Positions 7,289-23,430 of a stretch of DNA of 24,045 nt are shown here, piece by piece. Position 1 is the stretch's first letter. Every line of letters begins with the position of its first letter. The notes beneath the pieces were generated by a model. The model did no database searches, had not been told where the DNA came from, and saw nothing but the letters and a program-made list of their open reading frames with translations. Source of the DNA: a virus; the IMG/VR virus record IMGVR_UViG_3300020452_001287, positions 1 through 24,045 of that record; one strand, given 5' to 3'. Position numbers and translations under genes: made by a program.

Positions 7289-7310
7289 CAACTTAATTAG
7301 GTCCAGGTTG
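7289..7310 (-). promoter_or_regulatory. RACYT-N10-ARGTTG element upstream of xis-like gene
   Basis: On the minus strand this reads CAACCT, ten bases, AAGTTG, with exactly the spacing of the elements before the right-end genes at 21701, 22159, 22552, 22861 and 23409. It is oriented towards the excisionase-like gene, whose start is 34 bp downstream. Promoter or operator function is inferred from position and repetition. Confidence 0.6.
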
Positions 7311-7343
7311 AATGCTGCTTTTACAGAATTCCCTCAGAAATGC

Positions 7344-7502
7344 CTACTCGGCGTCTGGCTGCTCCAAAGGTGGGTGTGCCATATAGTCCCCACCCCCGCT
7401 CAGAATCGCCACGCTGCGGCGGTAAAAATGTGAATCAGTCTTTCCGCTAGCTTCAAGAGCTATGCGAATCTTGCGCCAGTTTTCAAGTTCTTGACTGTCC
7501 AT
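7344..7502 (-). CDS. small protein, 52 residues, cyanophage type
   Basis: From ATG at 7502 (MDSQELENWRKIRIALEASG); the frame is open 17 codons further upstream, but that part overlaps the preceding gene, and the ATG follows that gene's stop directly (TAATATG). The conserved-looking part is WRKIRIALEASGKTDSHFYR followed by RSVAILSGGGD. Short proteins with this W.KIR.ALE..GKT...FY pattern are known from cyanophages, without assigned function. It is the last gene of the nrdJ operon. Confidence 0.65.
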   Translation of the reverse strand: MDSQELENWRKIRIALEASGKTDSHFYRRSVAILSGGGDYMAHPPLEQPDAE

Positions 7503-7503
7503 A

Positions 7504-7692
7504 TTAGGTGTGAAAAGGCCAGCAAATTTCAATATCTTGGTGCCAAGCCTCACTGTCTATGGGCCGGGCTTTTGCATAGTCCCTGAACTTATCTTTCAAC
7601 TCTGCAGTTGTGATGTTCAGGGATTTAGCAAGTTTAGCGACATTTGCTTGGCCTTTATAAATAGCGTCTAACGACTCTTCAAGGCTGAGCAT
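7504..7692 (-). CDS. small HTH-like protein
   Basis: 62 residues, MLSLEESLDAIYKGQANVAK. The segment NVAKLAKSLNITTAELKDKF has the shape of a helix-turn-helix (two helices with the turn at SLNIT), and is followed by a short charged helix and a Trp-rich end. It starts 4 nt after the nrdJ stop, so it is in the same transcript. DNA binding is plausible, but the protein is too short to assign to a family. Confidence 0.6.
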   Translation of the reverse strand: MLSLEESLDAIYKGQANVAKLAKSLNITTAELKDKFRDYAKARPIDSEAWHQDIEICWPFHT

Positions 7693-7696
7693 CTAT

Positions 7697-10048
7697 TTAA
7701 GTAATAGGGGCAAACATTGATTCCTTAGAAAAGGGTTTTGGTTTGGCTTCTGCGTCTGCAGAAGAACTCAGGCAGAAGTCTGAATCACACGGTGCAGGCC
7801 CGGCCTCAATCAAATTCCCCCCGTCGTATTTGCGTAAGGCTGAATTAAAATCATCGTTACGTCGGCGCTGGTGGACTTCCGCGACTAAATTGTCGAACTC
7901 GACCTGATTGACAGGTTCAAAGGGAAGCCGTGGAAACGTCTCTAATGAGTCAAAACGGGCCAGCAAGGCAGCTGAAATGTAACCACGATCCATCTGGATA
8001 GATTCCCAGATTTGCTGCGACAGAGGCTCGATTTCGTTCTCCCTAAATTCAATCGTTGCGCTGGTGTTATGCGTCGTATAAAAACGCTGCACCTGCATAT
8101 AAAAATCGAATTGAGCCCCTGCGCTGAATTTTGAGATATCAATCTCATCGCAGCCCTCTAGGCTCGACCAACTAACCGCACTAGGTATTTCTACTAGCCA
8201 TTCAGTGCAGCGAGGATCAAACGGGTCATCTAAAAGGCGACCCTGGTCGTCTTTGTCGCTCTGAGCAGGAATAATGTTGTAGCCAAAGTCTTTGCAGGCC
8301 AGGGCGACTGGGTCGTTTTTGCGGAAGGTGATGCGGCGAATAAACCTGGCCGCCTTGGGAGGATGCCAGCCACTGCTAGCGCCAGTGAGCAAAGACTTAG
8401 TGCCTGCAGGCTGAACGGTGGTAAACCGGTTCGGACATTTAATGCCGTTGCGCTCGCAGTATTCCCGCAGGGTGACCGCAACGACTTTGCGCCAGCGGGT
8501 CAAATAATCCGCCTCTAGTTTCTTGTACTGCCGGCCCTGGTCACCATCTGGGCGACCTGCTTCCCACCAACGCAGCCAGTCCACCCCAAAGGCATGGACA
8601 CAGAAATCAAAAAAGCCAGTGAAGCTGACACCGACAATCGGATCCCATTCACGGCTCTGCTGGTATCGCGGCGTCGTGAATTCGTGGTGAAGCAGTGCTC
8701 CGGCTATCAGCGCCCCAGCCCGGAACGCTTCATCCTGAGCCTGGAAGTCTTTTGGATCAATTTTATTTAGGTGAATCTCGCTCAGGTTGCAGTGAAAGTC
8801 TGTACCAAGAATTTCGCCGCACGGGTTAAGGCCGTAGCGGTCGAGCCGGTGTTCGAGTTCTTCTGGCGACATGGTGACGCCGGATTCTTGCGCCAATTTG
8901 GTCAGGTATCTACCAGCGTCTTCACGACCAAAACGGGTGTAAGCGCACAAAAAGTTTGCCCGTTTTGTTTCGTCACTAAGCAGATCCACATTGGACCGAG
9001 CGATGGCTTCGGGGGCGTACTGAATCGCACCTTCTCCGCTGTAAAACTGACGCGTTACAGCCTCTTTCACAGTCGATAGATCAGGTCGATCGTGAAAGAC
9101 TCGGGTGTGGTTGGCCATGCGTAGCGCATCGCGACGTGGGTCAATTCGCCAGCTCCCGTCCTCGCCCTGACTCCAAAGGCCGTCCTTTGCTGTTGCCGCT
9201 TCAGTGTCATTAGACCCGAACTGGCGCATTCCTGCAGACCGGCGGATGTTTCCCGCTACGACCACAACGGCGGCCTCATCAATTAGCAAGCAGCACTCAA
9301 CAGAGGTCAGCTGGCGTCCGTAAGCGTTGTTCAGGATCTCGACCATCTTCGGGTAGAGGTCGGGAAGTTTGGCCGGGTTGCTGGTGCCTCCAAAGCCTTT
9401 GAGTGGTTCTCCTGCGGGTCTTACACGGCTGCAATCGACGTGCAGGCAGACAGGCCGTGTGTGATCAAATTCAGTGTTGGTAGCCAGGTCTAGAAGCGCT
9501 TCGTAGGACTCGACCCAGCCCCGTCGTGAGTCGCCCACCTGAATGGTGACGGTGTTGCCCACTATCTCGACGTACGTCAGATCACGTCGATTTTCTGGAG
9601 ACGTTCCACCAACGCCCACCACGTCTCTCAGCTCGATGCGATTACGAATTACGGGCAGCTTGGAGATCATCCGCTCTTCCAAGACGGCCCCTGTGCCGGA
9701 TCCCATCATCGCCAGATCCATCATCAAGGCCAACGCCTCCCAGCTGTCAACCCGCGTGGACGTGCAGTTGTAGGAGCCGGAAAAATTACGGGGCTGATCG
9801 ATCCACGGGGTTCCCCCTGTCCAAAGCCAGCGCCCAGACGGCAAGACCTGCATGGTCTCTTGCATCCGACGGACAAGAGCGCTCTCCGTATCGGTAAAAC
9901 GTCCCAGCTCTGAGATGCCCTTAATCGTCCGGTCTGTGACCTGCTCGTACGTCTCGCGACCTGTCTCAGTCATCCGGCTATAGGTCCGGTAAAACACTGG
10001 ATTTGCGGCGGGTGCGCCTGCGTCGTTAAACGTGTTGATCTGTGGCAT
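7697..10048 (-). CDS. nrdJ: monomeric adenosylcobalamin-dependent (class II) ribonucleotide reductase
   Basis: 783 residues; reduces ribonucleotides to deoxyribonucleotides with a B12 cofactor. It matches the monomeric Lactobacillus-type enzyme: active-site NPCGE (Cys410, Glu412, Asn408), the disulfide partners in SYNC (Cys95) and FHC (Cys420), a PAGTKSLLTGASSG loop near residue 580, and a C-terminal CDSDFC pair (Cys754/Cys759) for re-reduction. The spacing Cys-x4-Cys equals that of the Lactobacillus enzyme, and no intein interrupts it. The start ATG has an AGG upstream at a fair distance. It leads an operon with two small genes and has an inverted-repeat element about 50 bp upstream. It would feed phage DNA synthesis together with dcd and thyX. 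Confidence 0.96.
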   Translation of the reverse strand: MPQINTFNDAGAPAANPVFYRTYSRMTETGRETYEQVTDRTIKGISELGRFTDTESALVRRMQETMQVLPSGRWLWTGGTPWIDQPRNFSGSYNCTSTRVDSWEALALMMDLAMMGSGTGAVLEERMISKLPVIRNRIELRDVVGVGGTSPENRRDLTYVEIVGNTVTIQVGDSRRGWVESYEALLDLATNTEFDHTRPVCLHVDCSRVRPAGEPLKGFGGTSNPAKLPDLYPKMVEILNNAYGRQLTSVECCLLIDEAAVVVVAGNIRRSAGMRQFGSNDTEAATAKDGLWSQGEDGSWRIDPRRDALRMANHTRVFHDRPDLSTVKEAVTRQFYSGEGAIQYAPEAIARSNVDLLSDETKRANFLCAYTRFGREDAGRYLTKLAQESGVTMSPEELEHRLDRYGLNPCGEILGTDFHCNLSEIHLNKIDPKDFQAQDEAFRAGALIAGALLHHEFTTPRYQQSREWDPIVGVSFTGFFDFCVHAFGVDWLRWWEAGRPDGDQGRQYKKLEADYLTRWRKVVAVTLREYCERNGIKCPNRFTTVQPAGTKSLLTGASSGWHPPKAARFIRRITFRKNDPVALACKDFGYNIIPAQSDKDDQGRLLDDPFDPRCTEWLVEIPSAVSWSSLEGCDEIDISKFSAGAQFDFYMQVQRFYTTHNTSATIEFRENEIEPLSQQIWESIQMDRGYISAALLARFDSLETFPRLPFEPVNQVEFDNLVAEVHQRRRNDDFNSALRKYDGGNLIEAGPAPCDSDFCLSSSADAEAKPKPFSKESMFAPIT

Positions 10049-10097
10049 CTGGCCTATGACCTGAATTTTTTTAAGTTATCGATTCCAGAACAGCCTT

Positions 10098-10118
10098 CAA
10101 CCTAAAAAGGTTGAACTT
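10098..10118 (-). promoter_or_regulatory. AACCT-N4-AGGTTG element upstream of nrdJ
   Basis: A perfect inverted repeat CAACCT-AAAA-AGGTTG followed by GAACTT, 50 bp before the nrdJ start. Nearly the same 21 bases (differing at three or four spacer-side positions) lie before the primase operon at 16544-16564. Read towards the gene it is AACCT-TTTT-AGGTTG, the short-spacer form also found at 17413 and 21681. Probable promoter or operator. Confidence 0.6.
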
Positions 10119-10153
10119 CACAAAGGCAACAGAAATTAGCTCAAACTGTGCGT

Positions 10154-10321
10154 TTAAGACTCTTTTTTAAGGTCACCCTGGATTTGATGTTGCGTGCGGT
10201 CTATCTGCAACTTCAACGCGGCTCTGGCAGCCGCGCTTAAATTAGGCTGTTCCGCCAATCTAATACAATTTTTAATTTGGCGTTGTAAATCTTCTATAGA
10301 TTCCTGAGAGTATCTTTCCAT
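10154..10321 (-). CDS. 55-residue helical protein, hypothetical
   Basis: An ORF from ATG at 10321 to TAA at 10154. The product starts MERYSQESIEDLQRQIKNC and contains LSAAARAALKLQIDRTQHQI, two amphipathic helices with no hydrophobic segment. The sequence looks coding (no low-complexity shadow features). Its ATG is only 2 bp from the ATG of the divergent AbrB-like gene, so neither has room for a normal leader and each would carry its ribosome-binding site inside the other gene. It may be read from further upstream through the AbrB-like gene. Moderate confidence. Confidence 0.45.
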   Translation of the reverse strand: MERYSQESIEDLQRQIKNCIRLAEQPNLSAAARAALKLQIDRTQHQIQGDLKKES

Positions 10322-10323
10322 AA

Positions 10324-10506
10324 ATGGCACAAAAAACTTGGACAGTTCCTGTTAGTTCGGAGGGCGAAGTCACATTTCCTGAAGAGTTAATTAAGGCTAT
10401 GGATTGGGAAGACGGAACGGTTCTTGAATGGGAATTCAAGACAGATGGATCAATCTCAATTAAGAAAGCGAATTCCGACGGCCCAGATACAGCTCAGCTT
10501 GAGTAA
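10324..10506 (+). CDS. AbrB/SpoVT-like small DNA-binding protein
   Basis: 60 residues, MAQKTWTVPVSSEGEVTFPE. The pattern (WTVPVS..GEVTFPEELIKAM.W..GT.LEWEF) is that of the swapped-hairpin AbrB/MazE-type domain: an initial strand, a PEELI helix, then a GD-like turn and a strand. Such proteins dimerise and bind DNA as transition-state or antitoxin-type regulators; short versions occur in cyanophages without a toxin partner, and no toxin is seen here. The last 47 bp overlap the 3' end of a convergent gene. Confidence 0.7.
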   Translation: MAQKTWTVPVSSEGEVTFPEELIKAMDWEDGTVLEWEFKTDGSISIKKANSDGPDTAQLE

Positions 10507-10624
10507 TTGTTTTGAAATAGTGCCGCTCTCCTTCAATAATTACGAAGAAAGCGGCGCTATCTCCGACGGGAAAACCTACCTCGTAGATCTTGTGACCTTC
10601 ACGCTCGTAGTAGGTCCTAGTCAT
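10460..10624 (-). CDS. hypothetical protein, 54 residues
   Basis: From ATG at 10624 (MTRTYYEREGHKIYEVGFPV), which overlaps the dcd stop by 8 nt; the frame continues upstream inside dcd but coupling favours this start. It is a compact beta-type protein with an IIEGERHYFKTITQAELYL strand-helix end. No family recognised. It closes the long minus-strand replication operon and its 3' end overlaps the convergent AbrB-like gene. Confidence 0.55.
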   Translation of the reverse strand: MTRTYYEREGHKIYEVGFPVGDSAAFFVIIEGERHYFKTITQAELYLGRRNSLS

Positions 10625-11114
10625 CTTTTGCGGCGCTAACAGTTGTATCCCCAAAATAACGGCCAACGTATGGCTGTTCTGCTTTTTCGGCGTACTCAAA
10701 AAACGTTAGCTGAGCAATCCTTAGATCTGGATAGATACCAATTTTGCCGTATTTGAGTATATTTTTAATCTCAAGTGTCAGAACACCTTTCCAGCCTGCG
10801 TCTATTAGTCCTGCAAGAGAGTGATTTAGGCCTTCCCGGGCACGGGAACTGACCAAATGTAAATGCGCCTCAACATTGTCAGGTAGCCGGACATATTCAA
10901 CCGTCTCACCGAGCATAAAAGTGCCAGGTTCCAAATACAGAGGGTTGACCTTGTTATAAACGGACAGGTCTATGTCTAACCAGCCGTTTTCGGTTTCAAT
11001 CCTGGCTTTTGGTCCTAGGTGTACGTCGTATGAACAGGGTTGAACGCACCCATCCACAAAAGGCTTGATCATCTCCTCCGTCAGGCAGAGTTCACGAATG
11101 CGGCGGTCAATCAT
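10617..11114 (-). CDS. dcd: dCTP deaminase
   Basis: 165 residues from ATG at 11114 (MIDRRIRELC); a GTG 11 codons upstream is possible. It converts dCTP to dUTP, feeding dUMP to thymidylate synthase. Family motifs are in place: VQPCSYDVHLG (usual QPASVDLRLG), SSRAREGLNHSLAGLIDAGW with the catalytic Glu of the family in REGL, GVLTLEIKN, and a C-terminal GRYFGD close to the usual nucleotide-lid end. A bifunctional deaminase/dUTPase cannot be ruled out. The ATG overlaps the end of the upstream small ORF (ATGATTGA). With thyX and nrdJ it completes a dTTP-making route. Confidence 0.88.
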   Translation of the reverse strand: MIDRRIRELCLTEEMIKPFVDGCVQPCSYDVHLGPKARIETENGWLDIDLSVYNKVNPLYLEPGTFMLGETVEYVRLPDNVEAHLHLVSSRAREGLNHSLAGLIDAGWKGVLTLEIKNILKYGKIGIYPDLRIAQLTFFEYAEKAEQPYVGRYFGDTTVSAAKDD

Positions 11115-11286
11115 GGAAACGTCCGTAACCTTTTGGTGATTTTCCACGCCATTTAGCGCGGGAGAGCTTTTTTAATTTGTGCCAAGCTATGAACTCTTCA
11201 GCATCAATAACGAGCCTGTGCAGCAGCCCCTGAGGCATCTGCTCTGCCAGTTCGTTAAGACGCCTCAGAAGCTCGTCCCGATACAA
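11107..11286 (-). CDS. hypothetical protein, 59 residues, TTG start
   Basis: An ORF filling the otherwise empty gap between the 85-residue gene and dcd. From TTG at 11286 it reads YRDELLRRLNELAEQMPQG, then LLHRLVIDAEEFIAWHKLKK, then a basic end SRAKWRGKSPKGYGR. The composition is that of a real helical basic protein, and it overlaps both neighbours (32 nt at its start, 8 nt at its end), the packing seen throughout this operon. No ATG is available near the start. Function unknown. Confidence 0.5.
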   Translation of the reverse strand: MYRDELLRRLNELAEQMPQGLLHRLVIDAEEFIAWHKLKKLSRAKWRGKSPKGYGRFHD

Positions 11287-11506
11287 CGTAGCGACCTGAA
11301 CCTGTATTGGTTATACCGGTGATTTGCTCGGCTCTATACCGTTTATAAAAGGCCTGCTCCAAAGCAGTAAGTCGAGGATTCTTCTGGCGTTGGTTTAAAC
11401 AGTGGATGGCTCTGGCTTTTGCCGCTTCAATGTTGCCCTCTGGATTTCTAGAGGGGTGCATCAGGGTTTTGATCTCAGTGGGGACTTTTTTCCTGGGGCT
11501 TGCCAT
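11255..11506 (-). CDS. hypothetical basic protein, 83 residues
   Basis: From ATG at 11506 (MASPRKKVPTEIKTLMHPSR); a TTG two codons earlier is also open. It is basic and helical, with EAAKARAIHCLNQRQKN and ALEQAFYKRYRAEQI. No family recognised. An AGG about 8 nt before the ATG could serve as ribosome-binding site; that AGG is part of a TTTAGGTTG string repeated twice here. It follows polA by about 40 nt in the same operon. Confidence 0.6.
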   Translation of the reverse strand: MASPRKKVPTEIKTLMHPSRNPEGNIEAAKARAIHCLNQRQKNPRLTALEQAFYKRYRAEQITGITNTGSGRYVVSGRASEAS

Positions 11507-11509
11507 GGA

Positions 11510-11536
11510 CAACCTAAAGCTGATTCAACCTAGTCC
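11510..11536 (-). repeat. twin AGGTTG repeats ahead of the 83-residue gene
   Basis: On the minus strand CTAGGTTGA and TTTAGGTTG occur 13 bp apart just before the ATG at 11506. Both match the ARGTTG half-site of the elements before nrdJ, primase and the right-end genes, but here they are direct repeats, and the second overlaps the presumed ribosome-binding site. Confidence 0.35.
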
Positions 11537-11545
11537 TATAAAAGA

Positions 11546-13722: not shown

Positions 13723-16530
13723 TTAAGATTTCGTTAACGCATCGTCGCCTGTGAACCAACCTAGACCATTTTCGTCAAAACGTGCCTGGTGATACAATTC
13801 GTTGAGGTCAAATTCTGCTCTATCCGTCCCCTCCCTATGTGTTCCTGAATTTGCAACTTTATTCAAATCGCTGTCCTGGGCAGGGTTTAAAGCGTTGCAA
13901 TGGGTATCAGGTGCAACATTAATATTCTGAGAATCCTGACCCGAAAGCGTTTCCATTAATGACGCATCTGCAACGCAATTATTGCCACGCTTAACTTTTT
14001 CAGGTTTTGCAGTGCTTTTGCAGGATTCATCGTTTTGTTGCCGCGCACCTGCAACATTATTCAAATCGCTGTTAGGGACTGTGTTTTTGTAATTATGATG
14101 AGATGATGATCCCCCCCTCTCCTCGCGAGGCGCACTGTTTAAGCGTTCGAGGAGTTCGAGGCCTTCTGCAGTACAGGCGAACCAGTGACTTTCTGGAGCA
14201 CCTCTACGGCCCTCTGCAGGGCCTGGAGCTGATTGGATGAGCCTGCGGGTCTTAAGACGGTTTAAAGCGCTTCTAAGGGTGCTGGCTGTGGCCCTGCGTC
14301 CGATCGACACCTCCAGCTCTTTGCGGGTTGTTGATTCCCCTCTTGTGGTCTGTGTACGGATAAAGCTGTGAACCAGATCAATGACGGGTGTTTTCCCGCT
14401 GTACTTTCTTTTTCTTTCTACGGGCGTGAAATCTTCGATATCCAAAGAGTCATCGTCATGCAGAAGTGTGACTAGCTTGTCATTTTCACGGCCAATTCTT
14501 GATTTGCCAATAGTGATGATTCTGCGCATTTCTGTATCTGGACCATAAACATCTTCCTTGCATTCATCTTCACTGGGTTTATCTAATGCCCAGGTCTCAG
14601 TAACAGCGTCTCCGATACTTGAGTGCCCTCTAAATCCTCCATTGCGATTATTGTGATGTAATATAAGAATTGAACAGGCTGGGAATTCAGTACCATTATC
14701 GACTTCTAAGTCTCTTAGAGGTTTAGATATCTCCTGCTTATTATTATCCACCAAAGGCATACATCCAGACAGTGAGTCAATGATGACTAACTGAGGCTTA
14801 AGCTCGTTTAATTTTTGATAAAAACGGCGCTGCCACTTGAGTCTGAACTTTGGCCACGAATAAAAATTAGGGTCTTCATTGATACCGTGAGACTCTAATT
14901 GGTTCTCAAAGATTTCCCTGGACTGGTCTCCGTTGCACCATAAGACGGTCCCTTTTCGTACCGGCATATTTGCTCCTCTGACTTTAAAGGGACGGCCTTG
15001 CAGGATGTGTTTTGCAATTGCTGCAGCGGTCTGTGATTTACCTGTCCCGTAACCTCCATGCAGGCAGATCACGCTTGGAGTCAGCAATAAATCGGGAATG
15101 ACAAAATCCAGACCTACTAGGCCTTCACGTCGTTGAGTGCAGTTTTGGGGACCCGCCGCGGTTCTGAAGTCGTGGTCGTCCTGTAGGGCCTGATAGATCT
15201 GTTCTGTGCCCCAGCGCAGCTGGTGATCTGAAGCAAGGCGAGCGAACTCAATCGATTGCTCTGCTGGATTTTCAAACGTTTTCTCAATCCACCTGGCCCA
15301 CTCCAACGTGGATTTGTCCTTGGGGTCGTAGGTGACCTCCCGTTTGAAGGCGACAGCTGCCTGAAAATCGTCCGGGTAGGTCTTACCCAGCAGTTTTGCG
15401 CCTTCTATGCAGTATTCCTCCAAGGTGGCGGCATTAGGCCAGCCGGCGTCAATGTCCCCAGTTCTGAGGGCGTGCAACAGCTTGATAGCCCCGCCGCCTA
15501 CACGTTCCTTGTGGCACAACCAGCCAAATAACCCGCGCCCTTTTTCTTTTCCTTCCCCTTGCTGATCAGGCCAAAGGGTGAAGCTGGTTCCTGATTGCGA
15601 GTCATGAAACGGGCAACCTCCGACCAAAGGCTTTTCAGGGTTTCCGTGCTCCCTGGCCAAGGGCTGGCGGTCTTCTCTCCAGACATCAGCCTTGTAAAAC
15701 TGCCAAACCAAAGCGTTCGGATCATCTGGCCCGGTTTGCTTGCCCTGGCTGTCTGTACTGACCAAAGGTTCGAGGATCTGAACCTTGAAATCGCGGGCTA
15801 ATTGCTTGACGTTTTTCCCACTCAGTGGGGCCTTGTCCAAGCCTTGTTCCAGGGACTCCATCAACGCAGCCGGAACATAAGTTTCCGACTGTTGGCTGTG
15901 GTGGTCCATCAACCAGCACAAGATGCGATCAGGCAGATCCGCGACCTTGCCTCCGTTGTATGACAGCCACGAATATTGCCCCTGGGTGTCCGGGTGATAG
16001 GACCCCGGCAACACGGAATAACAACCGCCGTAGCGAATGCACACCTCAGAGTTTCCGCCTTTTTTCAGGTCTTCGTCGAGCTGCTCCCGAATCATTTTTT
16101 CAAAAAACTGGCGGTGGCCCTCTGGCATCCGGTACAGCAATTGGCGATTTGTGGGTTTCCCTCGCCAAGACATGGTCCCCGGGTCAGCTATGGCCGGATA
16201 TTCCTGACCCATAAACGCTTCAAAAACCGCCTCAGCCTCTAGCCCGTCAATATCAACAGCGACCAAATATCCACCCGCAGGACCCGTTAAGACACCGAGG
16301 CCATTCTTTTTGACCGTGCGCAGGGCTCCGGTCTTGCGGTTTTTGACTTTTGATGTTTGACGCCACTTTTTAAAGACCTCCTCAGGGCTCAGGCCTTTGT
16401 TGCAATCTCCGTTGAACGCCCATTCAGGCGTTTTCTGCCCCGTGAACGCGGCCTTGTCTTCAAGGATGTTGTAGGTCCAGTCCTTAGGGAATGTGCCATT
16501 TCTCAACTGGTCTATTGCGCTCTCGTTCAT
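13723..16530 (-). CDS. primase-helicase fusion (AEP prim-pol plus RepA-type ATPase)
   Basis: 935 residues. Residues 30-205 are an archaeo-eukaryotic-type primase/polymerase domain: GVLTGPAGG, the metal-binding VAVDID (Asp93, Asp95), and VLPGSYHPDTQGQY with His179. Residues 300-350 carry a zinc-finger-like CPFHDSQSG...WLCH (Cys306, His309, Cys339, His340). Residues 485-690 form a RepA/RecA-type ATPase: Walker A GGYGTGKS, Walker B LVIIDSL (Asp585) and HHNNRNGGFRGHSSIGDA. Residues 705-800 read as a winged helix (TRKELEVSIGRR...SALNRLKTRRLI). The last 130 residues are polar and probably disordered, with N..VA(N/G/D/P) repeats. It starts the replication operon and should make primers and unwind DNA. 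Confidence 0.88.
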   Translation of the reverse strand: MNESAIDQLRNGTFPKDWTYNILEDKAAFTGQKTPEWAFNGDCNKGLSPEEVFKKWRQTSKVKNRKTGALRTVKKNGLGVLTGPAGGYLVAVDIDGLEAEAVFEAFMGQEYPAIADPGTMSWRGKPTNRQLLYRMPEGHRQFFEKMIREQLDEDLKKGGNSEVCIRYGGCYSVLPGSYHPDTQGQYSWLSYNGGKVADLPDRILCWLMDHHSQQSETYVPAALMESLEQGLDKAPLSGKNVKQLARDFKVQILEPLVSTDSQGKQTGPDDPNALVWQFYKADVWREDRQPLAREHGNPEKPLVGGCPFHDSQSGTSFTLWPDQQGEGKEKGRGLFGWLCHKERVGGGAIKLLHALRTGDIDAGWPNAATLEEYCIEGAKLLGKTYPDDFQAAVAFKREVTYDPKDKSTLEWARWIEKTFENPAEQSIEFARLASDHQLRWGTEQIYQALQDDHDFRTAAGPQNCTQRREGLVGLDFVIPDLLLTPSVICLHGGYGTGKSQTAAAIAKHILQGRPFKVRGANMPVRKGTVLWCNGDQSREIFENQLESHGINEDPNFYSWPKFRLKWQRRFYQKLNELKPQLVIIDSLSGCMPLVDNNKQEISKPLRDLEVDNGTEFPACSILILHHNNRNGGFRGHSSIGDAVTETWALDKPSEDECKEDVYGPDTEMRRIITIGKSRIGRENDKLVTLLHDDDSLDIEDFTPVERKRKYSGKTPVIDLVHSFIRTQTTRGESTTRKELEVSIGRRATASTLRSALNRLKTRRLIQSAPGPAEGRRGAPESHWFACTAEGLELLERLNSAPREERGGSSSHHNYKNTVPNSDLNNVAGARQQNDESCKSTAKPEKVKRGNNCVADASLMETLSGQDSQNINVAPDTHCNALNPAQDSDLNKVANSGTHREGTDRAEFDLNELYHQARFDENGLGWFTGDDALTKS

Positions 16531-16543: not shown

Positions 16544-16564
16544 CAACCTCAATAAGTTGAACTT
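16544..16564 (-). promoter_or_regulatory. AACTT-N4-AGGTTG element upstream of the primase operon
   Basis: Plus-strand CAACCT-CAAT-AAGTTG followed by GAACTT, 14 bp before the primase ATG. Both ends are identical to the element before nrdJ (10098-10118) and only the spacer side differs. The divergent gene at 16669 has its own weaker element at 16603. Confidence 0.6.
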
Positions 16565-16602: not shown

Positions 16603-16619
16603 TTATTTTTTATAGGTTG
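16603..16619 (+). promoter_or_regulatory. T-rich TATAGGTTG element upstream of the 16669 gene
   Basis: A run of T followed by TATAGGTTGC, 50 bp before the start of the rightward gene. The right half agrees with the ARGTTG half-site of the other elements; the left half is poor. It forms a back-to-back regulatory region with the primase element. Confidence 0.4.
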
Positions 16620-16668
16620 CGTTTGATAGTTGTTCTGGATAAACTCTGAAAAGTCATGCTCGTGCGCT

Positions 16669-17394
16669 ATGTCCAAGGGACCAAAAATCCCCATAGGTTC
16701 TCTGGACCCGTGTTTTGGCGACGGTGCTGTCAATTACGCGGTCTGGTTCAGCAAATTTGTAGACGCCAACGGATGGACGAATCCGAAGCTGATCGCCCTT
16801 GCTAGGCGTTTATTCGGTGACGAAAAGGGCTATATGCACAGCAGCCAAATCCAACAGCTAAAGCTGGGTGGACTTAAAAGCCCTGGGCCCAGGTTCTTTG
16901 CTTCATTGGTGGCCATTTGCGCTGAAATAGATAAGTTCCAAAAGGGGGAACAAACTGCTGATTCCCCAAGTTTCAAAGGCTTAGAGCACTTAATTGAAGA
17001 CGCGCAAATAATGCGAGACGACGAAGGAAATCCCGCATCTTTGGGTTTTCACTTTGAGGTCTTTGTTGGATGGCGAAAACCGCCCATCTCATCTGTAAAT
17101 CTGGATTACAGCCCAGAACAGGCAAAAACCATCAGTTCAAACGCGGCTTACTACATCCGCAGGCTGATGACCGCTCATAACATCGATATTTTCAGGGACA
17201 TCAACCGTCTTTCTGAGACCTATTCCAGCACTGCTGCAGATCAAACAAAATTTGCCGACATCATCCGAGAGCAGACAACATGGGAACCAGACGAGCTGGA
17301 CCATGCCATGAGGTGCCTTTGTAACGTCCTCAAAAAACATTTTAAACAGGACAGAAAGCCTCTGGAACTGATGGACACCTTCCTTAAGAGTTAA
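16669..17394 (+). CDS. hypothetical protein, possible HTH regulator
   Basis: 241 residues from ATG at 16669 (MSKGPKIPIGSLDP); an upstream TTG would add 13 residues. The N-terminal part, NPKLIALARRLFGDEKGYMH, then SSQIQQLKLGGLKSPGPRFF and ASLVAICAEIDKF, resembles a helix-turn-helix fold of repressor type: helix, turn, a recognition-like SSQIQQLKLG, and a packing helix. The rest is helical with no enzymatic motif. It is the first gene rightwards from the divergent region opposite the primase operon, a natural place for a regulator of the early/replication switch. Both the HTH and the role are inferred. Confidence 0.5.
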   Translation: MSKGPKIPIGSLDPCFGDGAVNYAVWFSKFVDANGWTNPKLIALARRLFGDEKGYMHSSQIQQLKLGGLKSPGPRFFASLVAICAEIDKFQKGEQTADSPSFKGLEHLIEDAQIMRDDEGNPASLGFHFEVFVGWRKPPISSVNLDYSPEQAKTISSNAAYYIRRLMTAHNIDIFRDINRLSETYSSTAADQTKFADIIREQTTWEPDELDHAMRCLCNVLKKHFKQDRKPLELMDTFLKS

Positions 17395-17509
17395 TTAAAA
17401 AATACAGGTTATAACTTTTTTAGGTTGCCTGTGGGCAGCACTTAGGGATACAACTCAGGCATCTGGGAGTTGATCTTCATGCCAGACCGTTCTCAACGTG
17501 TTCTGAGCC
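17395..17509 (+). promoter_or_regulatory. leader of the candidate SSB gene with AACTT-N4-AGGTTG element
   Basis: 115 bp between two rightward genes. The element AACTT-TTTT-AGGTTG occupies 17413-17427, the same short-spacer form as before nrdJ and primase, and is oriented towards the downstream gene 83 bp away. The long leader suggests that the SSB-like gene is transcribed separately and strongly. Confidence 0.55.
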
Positions 17510-18226
17510 ATGCCTCTGAAATCTGCATCGAAAAAGCCTGTCAAGGAGTTTCTACCCGCTTCGTTCAAACTTCAGCTTGAAAAAGAAGAACAAGAGCGGG
17601 CAACGCGACAAAAACTAAGCGAGGGACCGGGTCGCTACCTAAGAGCCCCTCAGGAAGTAACAAACGAGAAAACCGGAAAGATTGAACCCGGCTCGATTGA
17701 ATTCAGGGTTATGTCAGAGGCGGTTTTCGGCTTCAACTTGTGGCACGAAACCCCCGAAGGTGGCCGCGCATGTATGCGATGGCTGGCTGAAGATTTGCTG
17801 GCCAAAGGTATTGAAGGCGGAAACATTCCCGCTGACATGCTCCCCGAAAAGTACGAGAAATACGCAAAGAGTGGAAACCCCAAGGTTTCTAAGTGTCTGT
17901 CGATGGTGGTGCTGAACATCAGCGAAAGCTCAAAGAATGATCGCAACGTCTTCCAGATTTGGGACCTAGACAAAGTCACGATCTTGGAGCAGTTCGCGGC
18001 AGCTTGCGCTTCGCAGAATTTTGGGTATCCCACTAATTACGATTTTGTGTGGAGCCGAGTCGGCCAGGGGACCAGCACTAAGCACACGTTGCAGCCACAA
18101 CCCCCCTATGAGCTTCCACAAGACATTCAAGACGATTATTCCGCTCTGTCGGTCAATCTAAAAGCCCATGCCTCTGGCGGGCCTATGGACGAGGTCTGGA
18201 GTGACATTCAGAAACGCGAAGACTGA
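17510..18226 (+). CDS. candidate single-stranded DNA-binding protein
   Basis: 238 residues, starting MPLKSASKKPVKEFLPASFK. After a charged N-terminus comes IEFRVMSEAVFGFNLWHETP and GGRACMRWLAED, then SMVVLNISESSKNDRNVFQI, WDLDKVTILEQF, and GYPTNYDFVWSRVGQGTSTK. In phage OB-fold SSBs (gp32-like group) one finds the same order: a FR....FG..LW...EG strand pair, a W.....VQI.E.... region and a Y D...R.G.G segment; here the tail is acidic-ending (SDIQKRED), as typical for SSBs. A terminator follows directly, so it can be made in excess. The assignment rests on pattern similarity and context, not on a search. Confidence 0.5.
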   Translation: MPLKSASKKPVKEFLPASFKLQLEKEEQERATRQKLSEGPGRYLRAPQEVTNEKTGKIEPGSIEFRVMSEAVFGFNLWHETPEGGRACMRWLAEDLLAKGIEGGNIPADMLPEKYEKYAKSGNPKVSKCLSMVVLNISESSKNDRNVFQIWDLDKVTILEQFAAACASQNFGYPTNYDFVWSRVGQGTSTKHTLQPQPPYELPQDIQDDYSALSVNLKAHASGGPMDEVWSDIQKRED

Positions 18227-19033: not shown

Positions 19034-19035
19034 TC

Positions 19036-19314: not shown

Positions 19315-19381
19315 GTGGCTGATCGGAATTGCTGTCGTTGAATTATTTAAAAACAATGGAAAACAAAAACCCTCCGGTTGA
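19268..19381 (+). CDS. small ORF overlapping 19036 gene and thyX
   Basis: 37 residues from ATG at 19268 (MFMVLEGKLGRKMAREWL, then IGIAVVELFKNNGK). The same frame is open from 19166, where the sequence just before this ATG, SLIPYLKHHAG, also looks coding. It overlaps the preceding gene in a +1 relation and the start of thyX by 26 nt. It may be an independent small gene or the continuation of the 19036 gene after a +1 shift. Low to moderate confidence. Confidence 0.4.
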   Translation: MFMVLEGKLGRKMAREWLIGIAVVELFKNNGKQKPSG

Positions 19382-20018
19382 TCTCGACGGTTCAGTTTCA
19401 GTGGTGCAATGTTCAGACGACGCTGAAAAGCTGATCGTAAAAATTGCCCGAGTAAGCAATCCAAAAAATGAGAGCAACTGGGGAACCGGTCCTAAGTTGT
19501 TGAAATTTTTAATAGATAACAGCCATTGGTCTCCCTTCGAGCACGCTTTTCTGACTGTAAAAATTTTCACTCAGGTTGATATAGCGGCCCAAATTTGTAG
19601 GCACCGCTCCGCTGTTTTCAGTCAATTTTCACAGCGTTATGCAAAGTCAACCTCTGCAACGATGCCAAAATTTAGAGCAAAACATCCCACGAATCGACAG
19701 GCCTCTCTTGATAATTTGCATCCAGAGATTATCGCAAGTGCTGAGGAAACAACGCAGGCACTTTTTGACCAAGCATTCAGTCTCTACGAAAGATTGCTAG
19801 AAAAAGGAGTAGCCAAAGAGTGCGCCCGAAGAATACTTCCACAGGCAACAAATACAAATTTATATATGACAAATAATCTTAGGAATTGGCTGATGTATGT
19901 GGCTGTCAGGACTGACCCCAGCACACAACTTGAGCACAGATTGATTGCTGAGGAAATCAAAAAGATTCTTATTTGGAAATTCCCGATCACATCTGAGGCC
20001 ATGGGATGGCTCGAATAG
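19356..20018 (+). CDS. thyX: flavin-dependent thymidylate synthase
   Basis: 220 residues from ATG at 19356 (MENKNPPVDL). ThyX makes dTMP from dUMP with FAD, NADPH and methylene-tetrahydrofolate. The diagnostic RHR-x7-S motif is present as RHRSAVFSQFS (Arg82, His83, Arg84, Ser92), with SHWSPFEH near residue 60, ARRILPQATNTNLYMTNNLR and DPSTQLEHRLIAEEI towards the end. Length is normal. It is in an operon with the RecB-like nuclease and RusA, and works downstream of dCTP deaminase (via dUTP and dUMP; a dUTPase is not seen in the window). More AT-rich than nrdJ or the integrase. Confidence 0.95.
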   Translation: MENKNPPVDLDGSVSVVQCSDDAEKLIVKIARVSNPKNESNWGTGPKLLKFLIDNSHWSPFEHAFLTVKIFTQVDIAAQICRHRSAVFSQFSQRYAKSTSATMPKFRAKHPTNRQASLDNLHPEIIASAEETTQALFDQAFSLYERLLEKGVAKECARRILPQATNTNLYMTNNLRNWLMYVAVRTDPSTQLEHRLIAEEIKKILIWKFPITSEAMGWLE

Positions 20019-20377
20019 ATTACAGGCCAAGGCTTTTTATTTTAGATATTGAACCCAAGCCAGCAGCCCGCCCCCGCTTCTATAGGGGCAGAGTACACAC
20101 CGAGCCTAAGTACCGCGACTGGCAAATCAGATGCGAACAACTCTTAAGGCCTATGTGGTCAGGCGATCCCTTGGAAAGAGTCCAAAGGATGGAGATGTTG
20201 TTTATCGGAGCAAATCGCAGAATGGATTTAGACAACTGCATAAAAGCTGTCCTTGATGTCTATGTCTCGTGCAAAATACTCCGTAACGATAATTTGGCGG
20301 TTTTGGATTCTCTTTCTGCAAATTATCATCACGCCAAAGATAAAGACCCCTGCATCATCGTCAAAATTTTTGACTAG
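20006..20377 (+). CDS. rusA: RusA-like Holliday junction resolvase
   Basis: 123 residues; the ATG overlaps the end of thyX by 13 nt. RusA enzymes cut four-way DNA junctions as dimers. Seen here: EPKPAARPRF near the N-terminus (the P.P..RPR start of the family), and RMDLDNCIKAVLDVY followed by ILRNDNLAVL. Asp74, Asp76 and Lys80 correspond to the catalytic Asp/Asp/Lys set, and Asp95 to the fourth acidic residue; the usual DD pair is ND. It should resolve recombination or replication intermediates before packaging. Confidence 0.85.
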   Translation: MARIDYRPRLFILDIEPKPAARPRFYRGRVHTEPKYRDWQIRCEQLLRPMWSGDPLERVQRMEMLFIGANRRMDLDNCIKAVLDVYVSCKILRNDNLAVLDSLSANYHHAKDKDPCIIVKIFD

Positions 20378-20407
20378 GTACGATTGATTTAAGCCAAGAA
20401 AACTGAA

Positions 20408-20914
20408 ATGCAGGTTGCACAATCGCCCAACGATTTGCTGTTCAACCTCACAGAAATACGGCCAAAGTATGCGGTAAAACGATTTAGAAAGTCAATAATC
20501 CAGGATTATCCTGGTGATCGTTGTGCTTATTGCGATCGAAAGGCTACTAGCTGGACCATAGATCATGTCATCCCAATCAGCCGTGGGGGTCCAAAATTAA
20601 TGCGCTGGAATATGGTTCGATGCTGTTCTGAATGCAACGGATCAAAAAGTAATCATCAAGTGCTGCCCTGGTGGCGTCCCCAAACGATTTGGGATGAACA
20701 CAGAGAAGAAACACTTTTCTCTTGGATGCGTGAAAATTATTCAAGTGTTGACGCCAGTGCCATGATCGCCTTAGAAGAATCACTAAAAAAAGGCACCCTA
20801 GATGTGGATGCCTTGCATGAACTTAAAAATCCCAAACCCACCAGAGAAGAATATTGGGACTCTTATTGTGCGATTCACTATGACGCGCCGGAGTGTCTAG
20901 TTTATGACTGTTAA
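20408..20914 (+). CDS. HNH endonuclease
   Basis: 168 residues. A zinc-bound HNH core is clear: CAYC (Cys39, Cys42), IDHVIPISRGG (Asp52, His53), WNMVRCCSECNGSK (Asn68, Cys73, Cys76, Asn77, Lys80). The first 35 residues include KRFRKSIIQDY, usual before the CxxC. The 80-residue C-terminal part is acidic and unassigned. Free-standing HNH proteins in phages may be homing nucleases, or cut host or phage DNA. It is the last gene of the rightward operon and lies 16 bp from the convergent gene. Confidence 0.85.
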   Translation: MQVAQSPNDLLFNLTEIRPKYAVKRFRKSIIQDYPGDRCAYCDRKATSWTIDHVIPISRGGPKLMRWNMVRCCSECNGSKSNHQVLPWWRPQTIWDEHREETLFSWMRENYSSVDASAMIALEESLKKGTLDVDALHELKNPKPTREEYWDSYCAIHYDAPECLVYDC

Positions 20915-20930
20915 AGGCAAATTAAACAAT

Positions 20931-21533
20931 TTAGTACTTCAATAAATCTGAGAAACTAATGCACCCTGCCGCCCGTCGTTCTGGGCGAACGCCATCTGGA
21001 TCGGGCAAAGCTGGTAGCAAGTCAGATCGTCGAGTGTGCGTGCTGCCCTTCATTTCTAGGAGCCAGTCCTGCAGCTCGTTTAATTCCTGACAGGTTTCGT
21101 CCAAACTTTGCAGCACATCCAGCAACGGACAACGTTCTGGATATCGGAACCGGTAGCGCTCGAACTGCGCAACGTTCAGATCTCGCCAACCAAACAACGT
21201 GCGCTCAACGTCGTCAATTTCATCGTTCGACATCTGCAGGGTTACTAGACCTTGTCTGAGTGTTGTCCAAAGCGCGACGGGCCCGAGCTGGTGTCGTTCT
21301 CCGATATATCCGTAAGCAAGTCTGATTACGCGGTTAAACCTGGAAACGTCCTCAGGGCTAACCCTTGACGGTTCCGAAGCCTTTAAGGCTGAAGGACTTT
21401 TAACCTGAATCTCTAAAGGTGAGAACCACCGCTGTAGGCCTTTACTAAGCCAAGACCCGGAAAGTACATCCAGATTCACTGAACGTTGAAAATCCTGCGA
21501 GGGCTTAATCAAATTTCGCTTTTTACTAGCCAT
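20931..21533 (-). CDS. hypothetical protein, 200 residues
   Basis: Starts MASKKRNLIKPSQDFQRSVN. No family recognised. The N-terminus is basic; residues 65-175 are mostly helical with several Trp and Leu residues (RLAYGYIGERHQLGP, ERTLFGWRDLNVAQF, LDVLQSLDETCQELNELQDW), and residues 175-200 are Pro/Arg-rich. It is a single-gene unit on the minus strand between two rightward blocks, divergent from the right-end array, with no Shine-Dalgarno before its ATG. A regulatory role would fit the position; the sequence does not show one. Confidence 0.65.
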   Translation of the reverse strand: MASKKRNLIKPSQDFQRSVNLDVLSGSWLSKGLQRWFSPLEIQVKSPSALKASEPSRVSPEDVSRFNRVIRLAYGYIGERHQLGPVALWTTLRQGLVTLQMSNDEIDDVERTLFGWRDLNVAQFERYRFRYPERCPLLDVLQSLDETCQELNELQDWLLEMKGSTHTRRSDLLPALPDPDGVRPERRAAGCISFSDLLKY

Positions 21534-21744
21534 GGAGGGGACTGGCGAGGGGCCAAACGCAAAACCCTGTCGCGTTTGAGTTCTAACCGTAACCCATAGA
21601 GGTCGGCTTTGCAGCCTCTGCCGATTAAATTTCGCAAGACTTAAGAAAGTTAACTGATGGCGTGTTCGATTATTTAATTGGACTTTTTTAGGTTGCGCTT
21701 AACCTGTTCGCTTTTAAGTTGAAAGCTCTCACCTTCTTGAACCA
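21534..21744. promoter_or_regulatory. divergent regulatory region with several inverted repeats
   Basis: 211 bp without a gene. It holds a 7-bp perfect inverted repeat CAAACGC/GCGTTTG (21554-21560 and 21572-21578), two interlocked inverted repeats AGAGG/CCTCT (21598, 21615) and TCGGC/GCCGA (21603, 21620), the short-spacer element GACTT-TTTT-AGGTTG (21681-21695) and the long-spacer element AACCT-N10-AAGTTG (21701-21721). It should control both the 200-residue gene and the right-end array. Confidence 0.55.
21701..21721 (+). promoter_or_regulatory. AACCT-N10-AAGTTG element before the 73-residue gene
   Basis: First of five long-spacer elements in the right-end array; spacer GTTCGCTTTT. It ends 23 bp before the ATG at 21745 and lies 5 bp after a short-spacer element. 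The leader carries no clear Shine-Dalgarno and ends AACCAATG, as in three later genes. Confidence 0.65.
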
Positions 21745-21966
21745 ATGAAAACCGCTACAGCCTGGGACCATGTCTGCTGGGCCAATCAATCGATGAGAGC
21801 CCACGGGGTCCCCTATTGGATCATTCAATGCGCCCCCGGAATGTACGAACTGCGCCGCCTTGATGAGAACGGCTCAAGCTTGGCTGTTGCCTGCACTAAG
21901 AAAGACTCACAAGCGATCGTCAAGTGGGCCAAAAAACTCGCGTGGGTTTTAGATGGCAATTACTAG
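21745..21966 (+). CDS. hypothetical protein, 73 residues (array gene 1)
   Basis: MKTATAWDHVCWANQSMRAH begins a compact soluble protein with an aromatic-rich centre (GVPYWIIQCAPGMYELRRLD) and a C-terminal helix (SQAIVKWAKKLAWVL). The order strand-turn-strand-helix suggests a small alpha/beta fold. No family recognised. It is the first gene of the right-end array and carries the standard upstream element; its 3' end overlaps the next small gene by 14 nt. Confidence 0.65.
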   Translation: MKTATAWDHVCWANQSMRAHGVPYWIIQCAPGMYELRRLDENGSSLAVACTKKDSQAIVKWAKKLAWVLDGNY

Positions 21967-22096
21967 AACCGTTTTTTATGGGATCAGTTTGGCGGTTTTT
22001 GTCTTTGCTCTGACCGCCTTCGAGCCATTGCCCAGAATCGAAGTCTGCCAACGTCTATATGAAGGCCACCCGGATTGTCCAAGGCTCAAGCCTTGA
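21953..22096 (+). CDS. 47-residue signal-anchored or secreted small protein
   Basis: ATG at 21953, TGA at 22094, overlapping the previous gene by 14 nt in another frame. It opens MAITRTVFYGISLAVFVFAL, a basic start plus a 16-residue hydrophobic helix, then TAFEPLPRIEVCQRLYEGHP and DCPRLKP with two cysteines ten residues apart. This is a signal-peptide or signal-anchor plus a short Cys-containing exported tail. The terminator follows within a few bases, which supports a real gene. Function unknown; an envelope target in the host is a reasonable guess. Confidence 0.6.
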   Translation: MAITRTVFYGISLAVFVFALTAFEPLPRIEVCQRLYEGHPDCPRLKP

Positions 22097-22108
22097 GCGA
22101 GGCTTTTT
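22088..22108 (+). terminator. rho-independent terminator
   Basis: AAGCCT-TGAGCG-AGGCTT followed by further T residues; the stem starts inside the last codons of the 47-residue gene. It separates the first array unit from the next. Confidence 0.7.
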
Positions 22109-22158
22109 AGTGGGCCACCTTATGCCGATTCATTGGCTGGCACTTTGTGGCTACTGAG

Positions 22159-22180
22159 CAACCTATAAGCGTTTAAGTTG
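22159..22180 (+). promoter_or_regulatory. CAACCT-N10-AAGTTG element before the 84-residue gene
   Basis: Spacer ATAAGCGTTT, identical to the copies at 22861 and 23409. A conserved TGGCTA lies about 10 bp upstream, and a GGCTGGCACT block, shared with the 22861 copy, precedes that. The gene starts 23 bp downstream. Confidence 0.7.
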
Positions 22181-22202
22181 TTCTCAGTTCAGGGGAGACC
22201 CG

Positions 22203-22457
22203 ATGAAAGTTGAAACGATGCCCGGCGGAATCCACGGACGCAAGGTCTGGGTAGACATGCCCCATATGGCCGATTACTTCCCTGGCGCTGTCATGCGGGC
22301 CGAGTTGATCGACGACCGCTACATGCACCGGGATGCTCGACCCGGTATGGCTTGGGTCCGACAGCTGGCAACTCCAGCCCTGCCGAATCCAGGCGAGGAC
22401 GGGGGATGGGTCAGCGAGCAACCCAGAACGCGAATCGATGCCAATTGGGGTTGGTGA
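22203..22457 (+). CDS. hypothetical protein, 84 residues (array gene 2)
   Basis: MKVETMPGGIHGRKVWVDMP is followed by HMADYFPGAVMRAELIDDRY and a Pro/Gly/Trp-rich end (PNPGEDGGWVSEQPRT, DANWGW). No family recognised. This gene has a real ribosome-binding string (AGGGGAG, 6 bp before ATG), unlike most of its neighbours, and that string can also pair with CCC next to the ATG. It is bounded by its own promoter-like element and a strong terminator, so it is a monocistronic unit. Confidence 0.65.
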   Translation: MKVETMPGGIHGRKVWVDMPHMADYFPGAVMRAELIDDRYMHRDARPGMAWVRQLATPALPNPGEDGGWVSEQPRTRIDANWGW

Positions 22458-22462
22458 CCCCG

Positions 22463-22484
22463 AGCCCCCAAGGGGGCTTTTTTT
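22463..22484 (+). terminator. rho-independent terminator
   Basis: AGCCCCC-AA-GGGGGCT followed by seven T residues: a classic strong terminator directly after the 84-residue gene. Confidence 0.85.
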
Positions 22485-22551
22485 ATGGCCCACGTAAGCT
22501 AGAAAACCGGATGTGTGCCAATTCAAGGCGTGTCCTGTTGTGGCTACTGTT

Positions 22552-22573
22552 TGACTTGTTCGGGTTTAAGTTG
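22552..22573 (+). promoter_or_regulatory. GACTT-N10-AAGTTG element before the 66-residue gene
   Basis: A diverged copy of the array element (spacer GTTCGGGTTT), closer to the 21701 copy in its spacer. GTGGCTACT upstream matches the 22159 copy exactly. The leader then forms a GAGG-CACAG-CCTC hairpin. Confidence 0.6.
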
Positions 22574-22616
22574 TTTTCAACCGAGAGGCACAGCCTCCAC
22601 CCCACCCTTCGCTCCC

Positions 22617-22817
22617 ATGGCTTCCAATTTTCACTGCATCATTCGCCAACAGGGAACCACCGGACCCGAAGGCATCTGGGATCAGTTCTTTGCTAACGAT
22701 CCTGTAGAAGGCAAAGCGACTCTGACTCGCAGGCTTAACCAACTGCCTGGCGGGATGATCCTGACCCTGAGTGGCCCCAAGGCCTACGAGGTCCAGATCT
22801 TCGACCTGAGGGCATGA
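22617..22817 (+). CDS. hypothetical protein, 66 residues (array gene 3)
   Basis: From ATG at 22617 (MASNFHCIIRQQGTTGPEGI). The frame is open 34 codons upstream but that stretch is the promoter and leader. The protein has KATLTRRLNQLPGGMILTLS and GPKAYEVQIFDLRA, an alpha/beta pattern. No family recognised. It has its own upstream element and no Shine-Dalgarno near the ATG. Confidence 0.65.
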   Translation: MASNFHCIIRQQGTTGPEGIWDQFFANDPVEGKATLTRRLNQLPGGMILTLSGPKAYEVQIFDLRA

Positions 22818-22860
22818 GCCCCTGGGACGCTTTGGAGGCTGGCACTCTTTGGCTAGTTTT

Positions 22861-22882
22861 CAACCTATAAGCGTTTAGGTTA
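22861..22882 (+). promoter_or_regulatory. CAACCT-N10-AGGTTA element before the 140-residue gene
   Basis: Identical spacer (ATAAGCGTTT) to the 22159 and 23409 copies. The left and right half-sites (AACCT/AGGTT) are perfectly palindromic here. The leader after it is nearly the same as that of the 23486 gene. Confidence 0.7.
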
Positions 22883-22933
22883 GTTGCAACGGAGGGGACT
22901 CACCCCACCACAACCAACTCTCACCCCAAACCA

Positions 22934-23356
22934 ATGACCAAATTCATCCCCGTCAAAGACGCCCTTAAGGCTCTGGCCGCTGCAGGCCACGACGTACAGA
23001 AGCCCAGCCGCAAGCAAGACCGAGTCGCCGGCTTTGGTGGCCCCCACTATCTGGTGGATGGCGAGTGGATCAACCTCAGCTCAGTCCGCGCCATGGTCGC
23101 CGACCTGGGCCTGGAGAAGAACACCAAGGCCACAGCAGACAAGCCCCGCCGCGAGATCGAAGACATCGCCGAGGCCGTCCGTAATCACCCCAGCTGCCAG
23201 AAGCGGCAAGTCGTGGTCGGCACCTGGGGCGAGCGCAACCTCCACGGCCAGGTTGTCTACGCCTTTCGCATGGTCAGCAAGGAAGGCAAGCAGATCGGCG
23301 GAATGAAGACCCTCCGCGCCATCCGCGAGTGGGCCACCAAGAACGGGGTGATCTGA
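22934..23356 (+). CDS. hypothetical protein, 140 residues (array gene 4)
   Basis: Starts MTKFIPVKDALKALAAAGHD. The first 60 residues (KDALKALAAAGHDVQ, GGPHYLVDGEWINLSSVRAM) look like a small DNA- or protein-binding fold with a helix, a hairpin and a second helix. The rest is basic and helical with a QVVVGTWGERNLHGQVVYAF beta section. No family recognised. The codons are visibly GC-rich compared with thyX or the lysis genes, which suggests a separate origin or strong codon adaptation. Confidence 0.7.
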   Translation: MTKFIPVKDALKALAAAGHDVQKPSRKQDRVAGFGGPHYLVDGEWINLSSVRAMVADLGLEKNTKATADKPRREIEDIAEAVRNHPSCQKRQVVVGTWGERNLHGQVVYAFRMVSKEGKQIGGMKTLRAIREWATKNGVI

Positions 23357-23408
23357 TCAACCCCCTTGGCTGTGCCGGTTGGAGACCTGGCCCAATGTGG
23401 CTAGGCTT

Positions 23409-23430
23409 CAACCTATAAGCGTTTAAGTTG
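23409..23430 (+). promoter_or_regulatory. CAACCT-N10-AAGTTG element before the 106-residue gene
   Basis: The 22 bases equal those at 22159 exactly. GTGGCTA again lies about 10 bp upstream. The following leader is a near copy of the one before the 22934 gene, although the coding sequences are unrelated. Confidence 0.7.

Follow-up and report, generated by a model that had tools for sequence, protein, structure and literature searches.

A dyad element with two fixed spacings upstream of replication, excisionase-like and small genes in a cyanophage-like virus

Introduction

Dispersed operators are a known feature of phages. The conserved inverted repeats (CIRs) of phiC31 are repressor sites that occupy many intergenic regions and adjoin early promoters, and the 434-type operators of lambdoid phages are 14-bp dyads of the form ACAA-N6-TTGT. 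For temperate cyanophages, the choice between lysis and lysogeny is poorly known. Here we describe an inverted-repeat (dyad) element that occurs in about a dozen copies, at exactly two spacings between its arms (4 and 10 bp), in IMG/VR virus record IMGVR_UViG_3300020452_001287. The whole stretch analyzed, hereafter the window, is 24,045 bases long and is classed as linear, so that it is perhaps a fragment. By its genes, which include those for NrdJ, PolA, a primase, dCTP deaminase, ThyX, RusA- and HNH-like proteins, an integrase and a tRNA-Ala, the virus is placed among cyanophage-like temperate phages.

The element with the 4-bp spacer (4-form) is a 14-bp dyad, AACC-N6-GGTT, and the element with the 10-bp spacer (10-form) is 20 bp long. 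The 4-form has the length of a 434-type operator, but its sequence differs, the 20-bp form has no counterpart there and neither the window nor its syntenic relatives yielded an HTH_3 repressor. Like the CIRs, the sites are intergenic inverted repeats, whereas the CIRs have one spacing, another sequence and another host. In phage SPbeta, a short motif named SPBRE lies at about ten phage promoter regions and is bound by the master repressor MrpR, a binding shown 24 years after the motif had been found in silico (PMC10516654). The window shares with SPbeta the repetition of one motif over several promoter or intergenic regions of one phage, but SPBRE is a single 15-bp motif whereas the element described here is a dyad with two fixed spacings, and no MrpR-like protein was identified in this work. 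The operators and stoperators of mycobacteriophage L5 are scattered repressor sites that vary in sequence among related phages (PMC6550527). Stoperators are 13 bp long, follow the direction of transcription and for the most part do not lie at promoters; the window sites are unlike them in being mostly symmetric, with one reversed copy (22861), and in lying without exception less than 100 nt from gene starts. A first-pass annotation of the window had regarded the element as undescribed. This stands for the exact sequence and its two-spacing layout, neither of which was found in a limited literature search, but not for dispersed operators as such.

Results

Two spacings stand out in an unbiased scan

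So that the pattern would not be fitted to the expected result, we scanned with the symmetric pattern RACYT-Nn-ARGTY at every spacing n between 0 and 30. Over 3,569 intergenic bases this gave 6 sites with N4, 7 with N10 and 0–1 with each other spacing; these 13 matches fall at 12 places, and the excess at the two spacings is restricted to intergenic DNA. When each gene and each intergenic stretch was shuffled separately, 1,000 times, N4 and N10 each averaged 0.08 sites, with at most 2 in any shuffle, and no spacing among the 31 reached 4. With one mismatch allowed, the counts (13 for N4 and 20 for N10) were never attained in dinucleotide shuffles (means of 3.2 and 3.3, respectively), and the pattern read backwards, used as a control, gave 0 matches against 7. 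Three copies, at 22160, 22862 and 23410, are almost the same in sequence and belong to a duplicated stretch of about 64 nt. They are thus not independent, which brings the number of independent 10-forms nearer to 5 than to 7, still far above chance. The exact 10-form consensus has one match in IMG/VR, in an unrelated record, and two among 84,980 prokaryote genomes, in unrelated bacteria; we take all three as chance.

The first-pass annotation had proposed RACYT-N4-ARGTTG and RACYT-N10-ARGTTG as recurring upstream elements. We recovered the exact copies of the former (10098/10099, 16544/16545, 17413 and 21681) and of the latter (7289/7290, 21701, 22159/22160, 22553, 22861 and 23409/23410), and both fixed spacings and their association with gene starts were borne out: N4 and N10 alone exceed the shuffled sequence, which never matches them, and all intergenic copies lie within 100 nt of a start codon, about 10–94 nt upstream. 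Its site list was incomplete, since a 10-form in the nrdJ leader (10058) and a 4-form at 21638 had been missed and the 7289 site carries both forms, AACTT-N4-AGGTC and AACTT-N10-AGGTT being superposed on one AACTT arm. Both forms thus co-occur at 7289, before nrdJ and at 21681–21721, where they lie side by side as originally described. A supposed weaker copy at 16603 proved to be a right half-site with no left arm. The statement that the element always faces its gene applies to 17413, 21681, 21701 and 22553; the copy at 22861 is directed away, and five sites (10098, 16544, 7289, 22159 and 23409) read CAACYT...ARGTTG on both strands and therefore have no direction.

As RNA, the two arms would form a poor stem. 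The combination C.A is more frequent than any other in the 10-form (4/7 sites) and occurs at the variable Y/R position in 5 of the 12 sites, and leader folds are not consistent, which together argue that a DNA site is meant. An RNA hairpin or B12 riboswitch before nrdJ was ruled out by the C.A mismatches and by the lack of an Rfam match there; the Rfam scan of the window returned a tRNA and a glutamine-II riboswitch elsewhere only, and the arms do not behave as a cis-acting RNA or riboswitch.

Conservation in related contigs

NrdJ-based and primase-based searches of IMG/VR yielded syntenic contigs (designated by L numbers) that share with the window the gene order prim-polA-dcd-nrdJ-lysin-tail. 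No relative of the primase or of the right end of the window was found among 50,697 phage records, and the right end and its small proteins had no match in phage and plasmid records. Before nrdJ, six sequences (the window, L009, L010, L011, L013 and L015) keep AACC-N6-GGTTG-N9-CTGG, with N10 in place of N9 in L011. Across the six, AACC, GGTTG and CTGG are 100% identical, compared with 40% for N6, 50% for N9 and 41% for the upstream flank. A stricter pattern is exact only in the window, L009 and L010 and has one mismatch in L011, L013 and L015. Three further contigs (L014, L016 and L017) retain GGT[TC]G-N9-CTGG and have lost AACC. About 35 nt before the excisionase-like gene, L009–L012 carry a 10-form with a spacer unlike that of the window (Table 1); because L009/L010 and L011/L012 are close pairs, three lineages rather than five are known to have this site. 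L010, L011 and L012 also have a 4-form in the leader of the dcd operon. The elements are absent from more distant family members.

The two forms occupy different promoter positions

The positions of the arms relative to putative promoters, which we infer from sequence, follow a regular scheme. At nrdJ, the gene-side arm gives a TTG 19 nt before TAnnnT (TAACTT in the window, TACCTT in L013 and L015). At 21681–21721, the TTG of the 4-form and the TAAGTT of the 10-form are also 19 nt apart, so that the adjacent forms resemble the -35 and -10 boxes of a single promoter. Elsewhere in the array of small genes at the right end, the right arm of the 10-form is TARGTT and lies 9–12 nt before the ribosome-binding site. 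We also tried GTGGCTA as the array -10; it is less consistent than TARGTT, the final T is missing in one copy and its distance to the ribosome-binding site is longer than in L115. The single half-site before gene 16630 belongs to a promoter-like TTG-N20-TAAACT. The initial division into a 4-form for replication and a 10-form for excision and small genes was only roughly true, as a 4-form heads the array, both forms occur at the excisionase site and a 10-form accompanies nrdJ. Promoter position appears to separate the two better than gene class, with the 4-form arm on the -35 and the 10-form arm on the likely -10.

Each small gene of the array has its own putative promoter and often its own terminator, and the elements lie between terminators and genes. 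Homologs of array genes 22934, 23486 and 22617 are present in L113–L115. In L115, which is otherwise unrelated to the window, homologs of two array genes are 60–63% identical, and a different block precedes each of four genes, in clear cases TTGnnn-N17-CATAMT with 10–12 nt to the ribosome-binding site; L113 and L114 have yet another block, GCTGTACAATTCTG. The shared architecture with differing boxes suggests that the boxes are element-specific, as expected for element-specific regulators.

Two further observations concern these contigs. A small protein of 140 aa, encoded at 22934–23356 of the window and in L113–L115, is 63–66% conserved between otherwise unrelated elements, within short-gene arrays. 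L114 (4449–4591) and L113 (4609–4707) contain up to 12 tandem copies of CTTAACCTnnn with an 11-bp period, followed by 29-bp GATCCTGATACG repeats; the tandem repeats resemble cyanobacterial Pho boxes in form.

Table 1. Dyad sites and associated genes in the window. A point in the strand column marks features given without strand.
Feature	Position	Strand	Remarks
Excisionase-like HTH protein, 74 aa	7031..7255	-	Downstream of the 7289 dyad; HTH_17 E=5.8e-5 (window), 4.3e-7 (L009)
Dyad with both forms	7289..7309	.	Upstream of excisionase-like gene; positional equivalent in relatives AACCT-AGACCATTCC-AGGTT
NrdJ, class II ribonucleotide reductase	7697..10048	-	59% to S-CBP2 and Cylindrospermopsis phage enzymes
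10-form in nrdJ leader	10058..10077	.	Overlaps putative -10 (TAACTT); from spacing scan
4-form, perfect dyad CAACCTAAAAAGGTTG	10098..10113	.	About 50 nt before nrdJ; six sequences share the footprint
Primase/helicase	13723..16530	-	phrog_1156 DNA primase E=1.3e-15
4-form CAACCTCAATAAGTTG	16544..16559	.	About 14 nt upstream of primase/helicase start
Single right half-site TATAGGTTG	16610..16619	+	No left arm; first reported at 16603
All-helical conserved protein, helix-turn-helix-like N-terminal part	16630..17394	+	Syntenic in relatives, 34–46% identity
4-form AACTTTTTTAGGTTG	17413..17427	+	About 83 nt upstream of SSB-like gene
SSB-like protein	17510..18226	+	phrog_8542 E=1.2e-6 (function unknown); phrog_1192 ssDNA-binding protein E=0.008
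4-form GACTTAAGAAAGTT	21638..21651	.	From spacing scan
4-form at head of array	21681..21695	+	TTG is -35-like box, TTGCGC-N16-TAAGTT
10-form	21701..21721	+	Right arm TAAGTT is -10-like box of 21681 promoter
Small unknown genes in array	21745..24045	+	21745, 22203, 22617, 22934 and 23486 each headed by an element
10-form before small gene 22203	22160..22180	.	Between terminator (22084–22098) and gene
10-form before small gene starting 22617	22553..22573	+	After terminator 22462–22479
10-form before small gene 22934	22861..22882	-	ARGTTG reading directed away from gene
10-form before small gene 23486	23409..23430	.

Candidate regulators

No Sigma70_r2 domain (control positive in 10 genomes) and no single-subunit T7-like RNA polymerase (S-CBP2 control positive) was found in the window or in relatives of up to 74 kb, records that may be incomplete. 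This weakens the phage-modified polymerase among the three options initially raised, the others being a repressor and an activator. An HTH_3 protein is present only in the 45-kb contig of L114. Within the window, the excisionase-like protein is a candidate regulator, with a match to phrog_66, 'excisionase and transcriptional regulator' (E=1.4e-6), and a site in its own promoter. The product of gene 16630, conserved next to the primase, is another candidate. Its AlphaFold model is confident (pLDDT 87.5), and it gave no significant family or fold match and no PDB match at E<=0.001; identification of a regulator by fold was rejected, as the XRE protein 2ofy, with the highest probability among the matches listed (0.28, E 6.4), is not evidence. 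In its putative recognition segment, the window and L012 (HSSQIQQLKLGG / HSSQLSQLRIGG) are closer to each other than is the case for members lacking the sites (HSSQIAGLRAAR), a likeness that also follows relatedness and proves nothing. Gene 20931 modelled poorly (66.6) and gave no match. A repressor encoded outside the 24-kb fragment is at least as likely as the candidates within it.

Other features of the window and its relatives

Next to duplicated homologs of gene 20931, L089 (about 4200–4370) and L090 (about 200–410) have 17–19-bp direct repeats (CCCCTAGGATCTCG...) beside an AT-rich tract, which look like an iteron-type replication origin; the window has no such repeats. Five contigs (L013, L015, L016, L017 and L019) encode a protein of about 390 aa between nrdJ and the homolog of gene 4155, at the position of the integrase. 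It has little or no match to known families and is probably a divergent integrase; among the ~390-aa proteins there were two integrase matches, both weak (phrog_1 at 2.9e-5 in L014 and phrog_216 at 0.02 in L019). We had considered that the palindrome is kept only in integrase-bearing relatives, a lifestyle correlation, and dropped the idea because relatives that lack the window's integrase have the ~390-aa protein in the same place. L110, from a close relative, is 98% identical over the integrase start. L014 carries an integrase-like gene (9185–10381) and a psbA-like gene for photosystem II D1 (8011–9093, minus strand; Pfam Photo_RC E=1.6e-87). Near its integrase gene, the window has a complete-looking tRNA-Ala (GGC) at 4893–4966 on the minus strand, which may be a tRNA of the phage or belong to an attachment site. 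A glutamine-II riboswitch (Rfam RF01704, 34.7 bits against a gathering threshold of 33) occupies 4785–4838 on the same strand, directly upstream of a 60-aa open reading frame at 4599–4781 (...MLMYRGVEYP...).

Discussion

We propose, with moderate confidence and from sequence data, that the dyads are dispersed operators bound by a regulator of the phage, with a repressor that covers core promoters as the most likely kind. One phage-encoded regulator, or a CI/Cro-like pair with a shared half-site, would bind the dyads in duplex DNA and unite the small early genes and the excisionase with replication and nucleotide genes in one regulon. The 14-bp form would sit just upstream of and on the -35, and the 20-bp form would extend over the spacer and the probable -10, TARGTT. 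Boxes covered in this way would be blocked for RNA polymerase, and replication, nucleotide supply, excision and small early functions are what a lysogeny repressor would hold down, so that a repressor of this type seems the most likely ligand. Several points weigh against this proposal. The primase site is too near the start codon for a -35 site, the array promoters at 22160–23410 have no TTG at -35 and could need an activator, and a scan with the sigma-70 consensus called no promoter at any site. Searches of the window and its syntenic relatives found neither an HTH_3 nor an S24 repressor. Finally, half-site starts are 9 bp apart in the 4-form and 15 bp apart in the 10-form; the difference of 6 bp amounts to about half a turn of B-DNA, and a single rigid dimer would not be expected to bind the two forms equally. 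This difference is a real puzzle.

It could be solved by two proteins with a common half-site, again CI/Cro-like, one reading the 14-bp form at replication genes and the other the 20-bp form at the excisionase gene and array. This possibility, which overlaps the proposal above and differs in protein number only, would suit the change of helical phase and the places that hold both forms (7289, 21681–21721 and nrdJ), but nothing points to a second protein, and one flexible protein would account equally well for the superposed arms at 7289; we consider it possible, if on the unlikely side. A more specific version of the repressor proposal is doubtful in our view, namely that one protein reads 5-bp half-sites at both spacings and that spacing is a code for where promoters are occluded: the -35 of replication promoters by the 14-bp form, the -10 of excisionase and small-gene promoters by the 20-bp form, and both on the first promoter of the array.

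Alternatively, the dyads could be activator sites, at which a phage early protein on or next to the -35 recruits host RNA polymerase to weak promoters and switches on replication and small genes. The arms of the 4-form do end at the -35, and the array promoters have a fixed GTGGCTA-N20-TARGTT layout despite lacking a TTG. Yet activators seldom bind at a -10 box, and the likely -10 is where the 10-form lies. In addition, the copies that define the GTGGCTA spacing are duplicated and the primase site is again about 14 nt from its start codon, so that activation seems unlikely. Somewhat less likely still is that the elements are simply promoters, with right arms serving as -35 and -10 boxes of the host or a phage-modified polymerase and left arms without separate function. 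Relatives without the left arm do keep GGT[TC]G-N9-CTGG and the downstream TAnnnT, and TARGTT stands at the -10 position; this reading leaves unexplained why AACC is invariant in six sequences while the adjacent N6 has diverged and why the inter-arm spacing is fixed at 4 or 10, and no sigma or T7-like RNA polymerase gene was found in the relatives. Least of all do we expect the site of a host transcription factor. The half-sites resemble both the SufR box of cyanobacteria, CAAC-N6-GTTG (PMC8593673), with which the dyad shares its outer four bases, and the Pho box (CTTAACCT-N3 direct repeats, 11 bp apart), which has an AACCT. SufR was ruled out by spacing, since CAAC and GTTG are separated here by N8 or N14 and the single N6 match (7597) is inside a gene; the Pho box was ruled out as no direct-repeat spacing of the half-site is enriched. 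The two chance matches of the exact 10-form consensus in prokaryote genomes also make a host site very improbable.

If the dyads are indeed repressor operators, they would provide a handle for finding the regulator of an uncultivated, integrase-bearing cyanophage-like family and would make the early regulon of related contigs recognizable. How flexible the dimer of a phage regulator can be could also be tested directly with the two spacings.

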